Of a DNA stretch of 12,672 nt, positions 3,264 through 6,043 are shown piece after piece (positions within the stretch are counted from its first letter, which is position 1; each line of letters begins with the position of its first letter). The translations under genes were made by a program, and so were the position numbers. The notes under the pieces were generated by a model that saw nothing but the letters and a program-made list of their open reading frames with translations, did no database searches and had not been told where the DNA came from. This DNA comes from Desulfobacterales bacterium (GTDB lineage Bacteria > Desulfobacterota > Desulfobacteria > Desulfobacterales > JAUCGF01): assembly GCA_029940345.1 (NCBI GenBank), contig JAOZRC010000084.1, forward strand, positions 1 through 12,672, written 5' to 3'.

Positions 3264-4445
3264 ATGAAAAAAAGTATTATTTTGGCCTTGGTCATCAGTT
3301 TGGCGTTATTTTTAACTTTAGGCGTGTCATTTGCCGATGAGGTGATCAAAGTGGGTGCAGGCCAGCCCATTACCGGACGCTTTGCCTTTGCGGGCAAACA
3401 TATCCATCAGGGTCTGATGGATTCCCTGGGCTATGCCAATGAACAGGGCGGTGTCGGAAATAAAAAATTCAAATATATTTATGAGGACACCGGCTACGAT
3501 CTTAAACGCGCTATTGCCTCGTTTAAGAAAATAATGGCCCAGGAGAAGCCCCCCATGATGTATGGCGAGTCCACAGGAGTCGGCAAAGCCATGGCGCCTG
3601 AGATCAACTCCCGCTATCATGTCCTCTACGGTTCCACCAGCTTTTCAGAGGAACTCAGCGACAGACAAAAAAACCCTTATATCTTTGTGAGCGGCCCCAC
3701 TTATGCTCAACAGTTTGGTGTCTTGTTAAAATACATTGCCGGCCAACCAAAGAAAAACAACAAACCTCACCGGGTGGCGTTTTTCTACAGTGACACGGAA
3801 TTTGGCCGGGACCCGATTCCCTTTGCCCGCAAACTGGCCAAAAAACTGGGGATTGAAGTGGTGGCTGAAGAAGTGACCAAGGTCGGGGCTGTGGATATTA
3901 CCAGCCAACTTCTGGATCTGAAACGCAATAAGCCCGATTATTGTATTTTCCAGGGTTATGTGGTGCCGCCCATTCCCGAAGTCATAAAGGGGGCAAAGGA
4001 TTTTGGCCTTGATATCACCTTTATGGGAACCTTCTGGGCCATGAGCAAAATGCTGCTGGACAAACTTGGGCCGGATGCTGAAGGATACATGGGGGTGTCT
4101 CCCTATTCCTATTGGTACATGGATGAGTTTCCCATGATTCAGGCCATACGCACCTATTCTGAAAAACATCATCCCGATGTAACCTATCGTCCCAACTCCT
4201 ATATGCAGGGGTGGTTCACGGGCATGATCTATGTAAAATTGTCCAAAATGTGCCATGAAGCCGGTCTGCCCATCACGGGTGAAAATCTTAAAGACATGAT
4301 TCCCAAGGTCAAAGACTGGGATACCGGCGGTTTGAGCGGTGTGGTCAGTTTTGCCGGTTCAAATGCCACGGGCATGGGAAAAGTTTACAAAGCCCAAAAT
4401 GGTAAATTTGTTCCGGTTTCCGACTGGATCCGACTGGATGAATAA
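3264..4445 (+). CDS. livK: HAAT-type periplasmic substrate-binding protein (LivK-like)
   Basis: A 393-residue secreted binding protein. Residues 1-24 form a Sec signal peptide: MKK, then a long hydrophobic core, then SFA before DE. There is no lipobox Cys, so the protein should be soluble in the periplasm. The mature part begins VIKVGAGQPITGRFAFAGK, the usual start of a Peripla_BP_6 / type I fold. It contains IMAQEKPPMMYGESTGVGKAMAPEI (split: IMAQEKPPMMYG, ESTGVGKAMAPEI), YSDTEFGRDPIPFARKLAKK and a C-terminal half with GFLD-like strands, giving two lobes. The length is nearer to homologues of aromatic or other carboxylate binders than to the classic leucine-binding protein, which is an inference. 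Its start is fixed by AAAGGAG at 3252. The substrate is unknown; the downstream CoA ligase hints at an organic acid. Confidence 0.9.
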   Translation: MKKSIILALVISLALFLTLGVSFADEVIKVGAGQPITGRFAFAGKHIHQGLMDSLGYANEQGGVGNKKFKYIYEDTGYDLKRAIASFKKIMAQEKPPMMYGESTGVGKAMAPEINSRYHVLYGSTSFSEELSDRQKNPYIFVSGPTYAQQFGVLLKYIAGQPKKNNKPHRVAFFYSDTEFGRDPIPFARKLAKKLGIEVVAEEVTKVGAVDITSQLLDLKRNKPDYCIFQGYVVPPIPEVIKGAKDFGLDITFMGTFWAMSKMLLDKLGPDAEGYMGVSPYSYWYMDEFPMIQAIRTYSEKHHPDVTYRPNSYMQGWFTGMIYVKLSKMCHEAGLPITGENLKDMIPKVKDWDTGGLSGVVSFAGSNATGMGKVYKAQNGKFVPVSDWIRLDE

Positions 4446-4455
4446 GTAGTCTGCC

Positions 4456-4643
4456 AAAAGCTTTCGACCTGTGCGGTTAGCGCTGAAAGCGCGAAATATG
4501 AAAGCCCAGGGCATCGCTCTGGGTCAGGATAGGTTGTAATATCAGCCCTGAAAGGGCGCACTGGCGGCAGTTGCCCCTGCCTTCTTCATACTAGCCCGCC
4601 CTTTCAGGGCTTTGATTCTTAACCGTACAGATTGAAAATTTTC
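4456..4643. repeat. Palindromic cassette I (23-bp terminal inverted repeats)
   Basis: The left end (4456-4478) and right end (4621-4643) are copies, in inverse orientation, of a 23-bp unit: a palindromic GAAAATTTTC core followed by GACCTGTGCGGTT. Each matches the consensus at about 20 of 23 positions. The payload carries two small hairpins of the same design, GCGCT-gaa-AGCGC (4480-4492) and GCCCT-gaa-AGGGC (within 4544-4558). A CCCAG/CTGGG hairpin lies around 4505-4523. The 15-bp AGCCCTGAAAGGGCG (4544-4558) is repeated inverted at 4597-4611. No reading frame of note is present. The cassette starts 10 bp after the livK stop. Confidence 0.8.
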
Positions 4644-4890
4644 GACCTGTGCAATTCATTCAGAGTCCCATCAGGACGGCATATTTGTAGAATCATCAGG
4701 GTAATATCTCGGCAGAGTCCCATCGGGACGGCATATCAGTCACAGCACAACAGGGTACGCGCAATCACATTATAAATATGCCGTCCCGATGGGACTCTGA
4801 CCGAATCATAACATCATTTACTACAAATATGCCGCTCTCACGGAGCTTTTAAGGAATATTTTATTTCAACCGCGCAGGTCGAATGTTTTC
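4634..4890. repeat. Palindromic cassette II (23-bp terminal inverted repeats)
   Basis: The left end is 4634-4656 and the right end 4868-4890 (inverted, 20 of 23 matches). The payload has the REP-like unit CAGAGTCCCATC followed by RGGACGGCATAT in direct orientation at 4661-4684 and 4713-4736, then inverted at 4776-4799. A fourth, diverged inverted unit begins at about 4824. CGGCATATTTGTAG (4677-4690) is the exact reverse complement of 4821-4834, so units 1/4 and 2/3 can pair as nested stems. Each unit also has a small GTCCC-atc-GGGAC hairpin. The first ten bases (4634-4643) are shared with the right end of cassette I. Confidence 0.8.
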
Positions 4891-4958
4891 AGGTGTTTTT
4901 CGCACTGCTAGCGGTGGGGTTGTAAATCCGGCAGAGCTATGCCGGGAAACTTATGGCC
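4891..4958. repeat. Inter-cassette segment with CCGGCA hairpin
   Basis: Between cassettes II and III there are 68 bp with a small hairpin CCGGCA-gagcta-TGCCGG at 4928-4945. It is REP-like in appearance. Nothing coding or promoter-like was seen. Confidence 0.4.
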
Positions 4959-5198
4959 GAAAATTTTCAACCTGTGCGGTTGCTATTAAATGTAGGGTGG
5001 GCAACGTTTTTTCACTTACTTAGTTCATAGCAGATGATTCGGCAAAGCGACGGACTTCGTTAAAGGAAACAGCCTTTGCCCACCGATTTTTCAGTAAAAC
5101 GGTGGGCATCGCCGACAAAGATAGGCACTGTATACAATATATGTTTCCGGCGATGCCCACCCTACCGATAAGTGTAACCGCACAGGTCGAAAATTTTC
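4959..5198. repeat. Palindromic cassette III (23-bp terminal inverted repeats)
   Basis: The ends 4959-4981 and 5176-5198 are inverted copies of the same 23-bp unit, differing at one position. Just inside lie GTAGGGTGGGCA (4992-5003) and its exact complement TGCCCACCCTAC (5154-5165). Further nested pairs are GGTGGGCATCGCCG (5101-5114) with 5148-5161, TGCCCACCG (5077-5085) with 5100-5108, and GGCAAAG (5041-5047) with CTTTGCC (5074-5080). The right end stops 41 bp before the livF start. No transposase or reading frame of substance is present, so this is a non-autonomous, MITE-like or hairpin element. Confidence 0.8.
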
Positions 5199-5228: not shown

Positions 5229-5242
5229 AGGAGGACCGGGTG
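5229..5242 (+). promoter_or_regulatory. livF ribosome binding site fixing a GTG start
   Basis: AGGAGG at 5229-5234 lies five bases before GTG 5240-5242. The alternatives in the same frame, ATG 5213 and GTG 5102, have no such site. The latter would translate through cassette III. Confidence 0.75.
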
Positions 5243-6043
5243 CCGTCTATTCTTGAAGTGAATAATTTAGAGGTGCTTTACAATAATGTCATCCTGGTGC
5301 TGAAAGGGCTTTCCCTTGAAGTCGAAAAAGGCGCCATTGTGGCATTGCTCGGTTCCAATGGCGCCGGCAAGTCCACTACCCTGAAAGCCATCAGCGGATT
5401 TCTGCCCTTAGAGGACGGGGCGATCACCGACGGAACAATTTATTACCAGGGAGAGTCTTTATCGGGACTGGCACCCCACCAAATTGTACAAAAGGGTCTT
5501 TTCCAGGTCATGGAGGGCCGGCGAGTTTTTGAAGATCTGACAGTGGAAGAAAACCTGATCTGTGGGGCCTACACCCAAAAAAACCGGGTGAAAATTGCCC
5601 GGAATATGGATAAGTGCTTTGAATATTTCCCCATATTAAAACGAAGCTTCAAACGCCTGGCTGGCTATCTCAGCGGCGGTGAACAGCAGATGTTAGTCAT
5701 CAGCCGGGCCCTGCTTGCAACCCCTTGCCTGATGATGCTGGATGAACCTTCCATGGGTCTTGCCCCCATGCTGGTGGAAGAAATCTTTGAAATCATCAAA
5801 AAAATAAATGTGAATGAGGGAACCGCCATGCTGCTTGTGGAGCAGAATGCGCAGATGGCATTGGAAATGAGCACCTACGGGTATATCATGGAAAACGGCA
5901 GGATTGTGCTGGACGGGCCTGTGGATATCTTATTAGGGGACAAGGATGTCCAGGAATTTTATCTTGGCATGGGGCATGGGGATGAAGCTGCCAGCTATCG
6001 CAACGTGAAACATTACAAGCGAAGGAAAAGATGGTTAAGCTGA
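5240..6043 (+). CDS. livF: HAAT/branched-chain-type ABC transporter ATP-binding protein LivF
   Basis: The second ATPase of the importer. From GTG 5240 it has 267 residues and begins PSILEVNNLEVLYNNVILVLKG, the usual LivF opening. Motifs, numbered from that start, are Walker A GSNGAGKST (38-46), MEGRRVFEDLTVEENL (from 91), signature LSGGEQQM (144-151) and Walker B CLMMLDEP (163-170). VEQN carries Gln202 where other ABC ATPases have the switch His, which is normal for LivF. A basic tail (SYRNVKHYKRRKRWLS) extends past the usual end and is reminiscent of LivF proteins encoded next to acyl-CoA ligases in sulfate reducers (recall, not verified). It is separated from livK by the cassette array and overlaps the next gene by 13 bp. 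Confidence 0.92.
   Translation: MPSILEVNNLEVLYNNVILVLKGLSLEVEKGAIVALLGSNGAGKSTTLKAISGFLPLEDGAITDGTIYYQGESLSGLAPHQIVQKGLFQVMEGRRVFEDLTVEENLICGAYTQKNRVKIARNMDKCFEYFPILKRSFKRLAGYLSGGEQQMLVISRALLATPCLMMLDEPSMGLAPMLVEEIFEIIKKINVNEGTAMLLVEQNAQMALEMSTYGYIMENGRIVLDGPVDILLGDKDVQEFYLGMGHGDEAASYRNVKHYKRRKRWLS

Follow-up and report, generated by a model that had tools for sequence, protein, structure and literature searches.

The question raised by this locus is how three consecutive cassettes, all lying between two genes of one operon, came to carry shared ends around three unrelated palindromic interiors. The window, that is the whole stretch of 12,672 nucleotides analysed from a Desulfobacterales genome (contig JAOZRC010000084.1), has the array preceded by a livK-type gene for a periplasmic binding protein (3264..4445, + strand; Pfam PF13458, E 2.7e-48) and followed by a livF-type ABC ATPase gene (5240..6043, + strand; Pfam PF00005, E 1e-26). 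The surrounding genes make up an ABC operon of the branched-chain-amino-acid type, after which comes an AMP-binding enzyme, so that the initial annotation was right in placing the array inside an operon. The ribosome-binding site of livF (AGGAGG-like) and its GTG start, picked by eye, lie outside element 3 and the array. The six cap copies in three head-to-head pairs which that annotation had described (4456/4621, 4634/4868 and 4959/5176) were found again in the sequence; its observation of three unrelated payloads under shared caps is confirmed, with the corrections given below, and its interpretation is partly supported. Very probably, the cassettes are non-autonomous transposons (MITEs) with swappable, mostly hairpin cores, mobilised by a Mutator-like transposase.

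The caps had been regarded as identical 23-bp units. In fact they differ, and comparison of the window copies with copies elsewhere gives as the conserved unit a 14-bp TIR, CGACCTGTGCGGTT (consensus across the family, SRASCTGTGCGGTT), the neighbouring AAAATTTT being flanking target DNA in the form of an 8-bp target-site duplication (TSD). The longer string GAAAATTTTC occurs exactly three times (4634, 4959 and 5189), covering four of the six caps, with caps 2 and 3 sharing the copy at 4634. The other two caps depart from it, with AAAGCTTT in cap 1 and AATGTTTT in cap 4, and pair 1 has AACCGTACAGATTG as its right TIR. Owing to the cap differences and to this deviant TIR, removal of the payloads would not yield the perfect palindromes that had been proposed, and no empty cap-to-cap palindrome was noticed among the retrieved loci in a non-exhaustive look.

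Described in these terms, and with no strand assigned to elements or TSD copies, the array begins with a TSD copy, AAAGCTTT (4457..4464; two mismatches against AAAATTTT), and element 1 (4465..4634, 170 bp; TIRs 4465-4478 and 4621-4634), whose core A (4479-4620) holds the hairpins CCCTGAAAGGGCG / CCCAGGGC. The single AAAATTTT which follows (4635..4642) serves caps 2 and 3, so that pairs 1 and 2 are taken to be two insertions in tandem, accompanied by three copies of the TSD, AAAGCTTT, AAAATTTT and AATGTTTT, the last lying to the right of element 2 (4882..4889; again two mismatches against AAAATTTT). Element 2 itself (4643..4881, 239 bp; TIRs 4643-4656 and 4868-4881) carries core B, made of AGAGTCCCATCGGGACGGCATAT palindromes with GTAG at 4687 and CTAC at 4821. 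Element 3 (4968..5189, 222 bp; TIRs 4968-4981 and 5176-5189) carries core C, a REP pair GTAGGGTGGGCA ... TGCCCACCCTAC with GTAG at 4992 and CTAC at 5162, between identical copies of AAAATTTT at 4960..4967 and 5190..5197. Elements 2 and 3 are separated by 86 bp, TSD copies counted in; the array would represent two insertions sharing one TSD copy and a third starting 86 bp on, all between livK and livF. Within that separating stretch, positions 4936-4955, ATGCCGG(A/G)AAACTTATGGCC, recur (by eye) in an extra insert in the core of another element, L013:1203-1514, and another small repeat family may be present there.

The abundance of the caps in the window's genome (assembly of 6.05 Mb in 1,024 contigs, 93% complete) is not due to chance, since AAATTTTCGACCTGTGCGGTT, allowing up to 3 mismatches of 21, gave 162 matches and the reversed pattern none. 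The cap pattern was matched in 13 of 58 relatives, the window's genome counted in, and TTTSGASCTGTGCGGTT with at most one mismatch in 91 of 389 genomes of the class (the window's genome and 90 others), where the reversed control over the tabulated class genomes yielded one match or none on each strand of a genome. When named genomes were scanned, at least 115 matching stretches were returned; among the 80 of those 115 examined, paired TIRs with flanks at two mismatches or fewer came mainly from Desulfobacterota, and were also carried by Prevotella and Chloroflexi/Anaerolineales MAGs. Three viral contigs with the cap pattern held no pair having similar flanks. One Prevotella MAG contains a 549-bp element (L270:7036-7584) which shares the 14-bp ends, has flanks differing at two bases and contains a very long near-perfect palindrome (z -35.7).

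The initial annotation had stated that its reading would fail if the unit occurred elsewhere only singly or in random orientation, and this was not what was found. In loci of the window's genome chosen for holding a TIR, 69 of 105 distinct TIRs (at most one mismatch) had a head-to-head partner within 340 bp at no more than 3 mismatches, and a further 4 had one at 4 mismatches; 16 lay 340 bp or less from a contig or locus end, 16 were unpaired, and a TIR with only a same-orientation neighbour was seen in 0 of 105 cases.

The flanks of the pairs point in the same direction. In the window's genome, 12 of 46 distinct pairs have identical 8-bp flanks and 27 have at most one mismatch. As the targets are AT-rich (8 bp, consensus near AAAWTTTT), left and right flanks were re-paired as a control, whereby 3.6% of mismatched pairings were identical and the maximum in 10,000 shuffles was 8 of 46. 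At other loci, identical 8-bp flanks were found in 34 of 62 pairs against a re-pairing maximum of 10 in 10,000, or in 33 of 60 when two rows from L438, a locus of the window's own genome, are taken out. By length, flank identity (own genome and other loci, respectively) was found in 12 and 34 pairs at 8 bp, in 3 and 1 at 7 bp and in none of either at 9 bp. These counts take caps with up to two mismatches in the window's genome and up to one at other loci; with a laxer cap threshold the number of pairs is 64, which includes some that pair by chance. The flanks of elements 1 and 2, carrying two mismatches, were counted against the MITE explanation. In length, 45 of the 46 pairs span 112-324 bp and one spans 563 bp.

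Moreover, one empty site was found: a dispersed repeat interrupted by the element at L018:1267-1514 exists in unbroken form in a congener (G001, L441:2682-2838). Identity is 85% across 66 bp on one side and 89% across 53 bp on the other, and one AAATTTTG stands where they meet; on the left the alignment is strong only as far as 48 bp from the element, and contains gaps over the remaining distance to the junction. The search covered 101 joined flanks, from which this case was the one examined and kept; the other junction-spanning hits resembled further element copies or neighbouring repeats. With TIRs at both ends and a TSD of fixed length, the identity of the cassettes as MITEs is, on sequence grounds, close to certain.

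The same data bear on a second idea of the initial annotation, namely that REP modules repeatedly insert at the dyad centre of a host palindrome. This would account for pairs that enclose palindromic modules, and it recalls section 7 of PMC3733652, where Anabaena variabilis and Halothiobacillus neapolitanus are reported to have REP dimers within palindromes. Nevertheless, the 8-bp TSDs lie outside the caps, the empty site has no caps, caps bound a transposase gene in other genomes, and the junction between cap and core C is fixed at 23-24 bp in 24 of 30 copies, which together leave insertion at a dyad highly improbable.

That junction was examined in 30 of the 43 exact copies listed for the core C motif TGTAGGGTGGGCAACGTT, namely those given as loci, taken regardless of caps or flanks. 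A cap with at most 4 mismatches stood 23-24 bp upstream in those 24, only at its usual far-side place in 4, and at neither place in 2, so that 28 of 30 copies have a cap where expected; that the payloads are always found without the caps, the other circumstance which the initial annotation had named as fatal to its reading, does not hold for payload C. The constant distance indicates that shell and core are propagated together in this case, the junction being inherited. Each core class would have been acquired in a single event or a few, and would have multiplied together with its shell from then on.

An autonomous partner of the MITEs was found in Delta proteobacterium NaphS2: a 1,680-bp insertion sequence (L322:113-1792) with TIRs at 0 and 1 mismatch, the 8-bp TSD AAACTTTT on both sides, and a 441-aa frame encoding an unnamed Mutator-like (p-MULT) transposase. 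The arrangement has two frames, and an A8 run marks the point at which they would be linked by a -1 shift. A protein search of 20 genomes gave transposase matches in 6, and all six hits reaching the transposase C-terminus end 14-20 bp from a TIR (0-2 mismatches), one of them in the window's genome (G000:C110). The expectation of a transposase gene bounded by the same caps is thus borne out in other genomes; in the 93% complete genome of the window no intact transposase of the family was found, and only a 61-aa remnant with a stop is present.

As described in PMC3942029, the p-MULT insertion sequences include ISLre2, ISKra4/ISMich2, ISH6 and IS256, and share a DDE triad with 99-138 residues between the second D (D2) and E and a C/D(2)H motif 11-19 residues past D2. 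In the transposase found here, D262/D263, D335, D359xxH362 and E451 are invariant in 33 of 33 sequences; the D2-to-E spacing of 116 residues falls within the p-MULT range, and D359xxH362 stands 24 residues past D335. Its best structural match is the ISCth4 transposase, and no solved structure matched its profile below E 0.2. No NCBIfam model scored up to its cut-off, the best scores of six proteins being 60 bits for ISLre2 (cut-off 200) and 67 for ISKra4 (cut-off 205). With UPF0236 (Pfam PF06782, gathering 24.3), one of five homologues scored 28.8, three scored 17.5-18.0 and one gave no score, and the NaphS2 protein had no match. Relatives of the transposase number 2,347 at E 0.001 or better among 7,999 candidates scored. 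Judged by their ends, flanks and partner, the cassettes are MITEs belonging to an unnamed p-MULT group.

Several other candidates were set aside. IS1595 (PF12762) was present in 0 of 5 genomes; ISL3 (PF01610) gave hits in 4 of 7 genomes, at loci with only isolated TIR matches at 3 mismatches, and IS1 (PF03400) in 4 of 12, with isolated matches at 2-3 mismatches, none bounding a gene. No convincing long TIR pair was found in two further genomes (G287 and G255). In L256, the flanks of a 2,331-bp pair differ by one base, and its left TIR pairs with a nearer TIR having identical flanks. In G287, positions 900-3134 of L255 (contig C5) show, by eye, a serine-recombinase-like reading frame beside a TIR, with no closing TIR in the stretch read. 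The stretch L296:92-1819 of Desulfobacteria Co_bin7, where outer TIRs with identical flanks, AAAAATTT, surround a MITE-like pair and unrelated reading frames, was rejected as an autonomous element because of that inner MITE and those frames, and is possibly a composite unit or a coincidence.

The picture that best joins these observations is one in which a Mutator-like DDE transposase, presumably supplied in trans, would cut and rejoin the shell and insert it into AT-rich 8-bp targets, duplicating them. The TIRs, the TSDs, one empty site and one autonomous partner agree with it at the level of sequence. The shell carries a core without a transposase gene which, in most classes, folds into strong hairpins.

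As for the cores, the interiors of the 46 pairs in the window's genome fall into four unrelated BLAST classes with 27, 9, 8 and 2 members, of which the first three include elements 3, 2 and 1, respectively; the copies are diverged, with median identities of 77-91% within classes. Over all genomes, leaving out two rows from L438, 28 BLAST classes were obtained, a number to be read with the fact that such groups are not all independent, some single-member classes resembling larger ones. The fold z, computed from 60 shuffles per class, is below -3 in 20 of the 28 and not so in the other 8. A member with identical 8-bp flanks exists in 18 classes, 12 of which have z below -3, while in 3 of the 28 every member has 5 or more flank mismatches. 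Cores B and C are GTAG-tagged palindromes in inverted pairs and core A is without GTAG; core B had no plasmid match, nor, searched as one exact pattern, any in viral contigs.

It might be argued that these are ordinary MITE subfamilies whose interiors are simply the DNA that happened to lie between two TIRs, with no process of exchange, REP-like repeats being frequent inside because they are frequent in the genome. A few chance captures would indeed predict the fixed junction of core C, and the 8 classes that are not strong hairpins, as well as the finding of a single hybrid (described below), would fit equally. Against this, hairpin cores make up 20 of 28 classes, and 12 of the 18 with an identical-flank member, and two further lines of evidence come from other shells. 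The first is that a second TIR family, TIR2 (GGCATCCTTCAT), also bears several palindromic cores, at least 4 different ones (by eye) in the window's genome; of its 11 pairs, taken from several genomes, 5 have flanks identical over 8 bp and 2 others differ there at one base. Its elements in the window's genome include L422:510-683, L425:589-762, L429:527-705 and L108:80-208, with others in L240 (G255) and L117 (G049). An element of the array's own TIR family (TIR1), at L170:1464-1701 in genome G250, lies nested within a TIR2-type pair.

The second line is the sharing of REP parts between shells. GTAG-type REP pairs are also found, in the window's genome, in TIR2 and in a third family, TIR3 (ends GGG..TTCC); their REP cores share the head GTAGGGTGGGCA with core C, yet differ from it, and one TIR2 and one TIR3 element have an identical 32-nt REP arm. 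Furthermore, one hybrid element (L431; G000:C298, - strand) joins two shells at a REP arm: its left part is of the TIR1/core C kind (76% identity, positions 21-154) and its right part is TIR3 with another REP core (90%, 149-210), the two meeting in a shared GGTGGG. On balance, enclosure by chance without exchange appears unlikely. The REP cores in two other TIR families and the one hybrid support the exchangeable interior proposed in the initial annotation, as the TIRs, TSDs, autonomous partner and unrelated core classes support its non-autonomous mobile element. Different cores in one shell, and REP-type cores in several shells, suggest recombination between shells and cores, for which shared REP arms or REP insertion into a MITE are the probable routes. 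Core exchange is thus a motivated inference, drawn from one hybrid and from shared arms.

Several of the cores are of REP type, a type linked to Y1/RAYT transposases. In G250 (L480, L486), arrays of AAGCCCCGTAGGGGCGGCATATTTGTAGAATA and its relatives flank two neighbouring Y1 transposase genes, and the tail of AAGCCCCGTAGGGGCGGCATATTTGTAGAATA is that of core B, which makes it a core-B-type repeat. Any of the core motifs searched was present at 3 of 20 Y1 loci in six genomes (these two and one in G001); the window's genome has 11 Y1 matches, and the motifs were absent from all 4 of the Y1 loci fetched from it.

A different proposal starts from the operon itself, and regards the array as a conserved structured RNA or attenuator kept for the regulation of the liv genes. 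The position within the operon favours it, and so does folding, since the computed z values of -6.1, -11.0 and -8.3 for elements 1, 2 and 3 bear out the expectation of three large RNA hairpins. A near-threshold Rfam match can be added: RF01687 (Acido-Lenti-1) matches core A at 4479..4523 on the - strand, adjoining the left TIR of element 1, with 36.8 bits, just under the gathering score of 37 (E 1.7e-6), and the whole window had nothing at gathering. Of 13 loci chosen for their core A, 9 do reach gathering with RF01687, as against 0 of 7 other loci. The family was proposed, according to a table in PMC2864571, from Acidobacteria and Lentisphaerae. A further Rfam hit, mir-1294, scored far below gathering and was taken as a hairpin artefact. 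Nevertheless, these elements are found at numerous further sites of the genome, and in G029, the closest orthologue found (livK 80% identical), the livK-livF gap is about 180 bp, as against 794 bp in the window, and has no TIR at 3 mismatches or fewer. An element kept for regulation of this operon is therefore quite improbable. As MITEs, the three elements may still affect their host, since their strong folding makes an effect on downstream expression plausible: transcribed, the array would form three hairpins, which may lower the expression of the genes that follow.

These results suggest that bacterial hairpin repeats can spread as the swappable cores of one kind of transposon. For the origin of bacterial palindromic repeats, and for the way in which similar hairpin motifs come to be in unrelated lineages, these elements give a testable vehicle with a defined shell, a defined transposase family and swappable cores; the shells also offer a testable explanation for the REP dimers inside unexplained palindromes reported in section 7 of PMC3733652. 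There is a warning as well, since transposons can carry, as cargo, copies of at least one Rfam sRNA family; and an unnamed Mutator-like transposase group has been given a place. A wider generalization is conceivable, although it is put forward as rather doubtful: a general two-layer class of bacterial mobile DNA in which DDE shells, having a short TIR and an 8-bp TSD, and REP-type hairpin cores, the latter mobilised by a separate single-strand (Y1/HUH) transposase system, would be freely interchanged, the REP arms forming the seam between them. Were this true, many palindromic repeats shared across phyla would be cores in changing shells and not host-functional RNAs, and some catalogued structured RNAs, Acido-Lenti-1 for example, would likewise be travelling cores.

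Among known systems, mobile insertion cassettes and transporter IS use the ends of an insertion sequence to move an interior without a transposase gene; both carry passenger genes, whereas the elements described here carry mostly non-coding hairpins. MITE families usually have one interior each, and it is in having one shell with many unrelated cores, most of them hairpins, that the present elements differ from other bacterial MITEs. They resemble RUP, NEMIS and Nezha, which are among those named in PMC3733652, in being short, TIR-bounded, of high copy number, flanked by TSDs and without a transposase gene, and, like bacterial MITEs, they are probably mobilised in trans. With the p-MULT group they share the invariant DDE triad, 8-bp direct repeats (8 or 9 bp in PMC3942029) and, in many copies, the terminal cytosine, and the two-frame arrangement with a -1 shift of the NaphS2 copy is like that given there for ISMich2; they differ in a conserved TIR of about 14-16 bp, against inverted repeats of 18-39 bp with terminal cytosine, in the terminal G of other copies, and, with respect to the ISLre2 and ISKra4 families, in NCBIfam scores below the cut-offs. 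Cores B and C have GTAG...CTAC around palindromes, as do the REP, BIME and REPIN sequences linked to RAYT (Y1) transposases (PMC2817692, PMC3733652), and core-B-type repeats flank Y1 transposase genes in G250; unlike REP/RAYT, the copies here spread inside a DDE-transposon shell with 8-bp TSDs. In agreement with the initial annotation, the literature search gave no named element of such design. A partial precedent is section 7 of PMC3733652, where REP dimers of A. variabilis and H. neapolitanus lie inside a palindrome that was not found without REPs; that section calls the palindrome a target and names neither TSD nor transposase, and its sequences differ from the TIRs described here.
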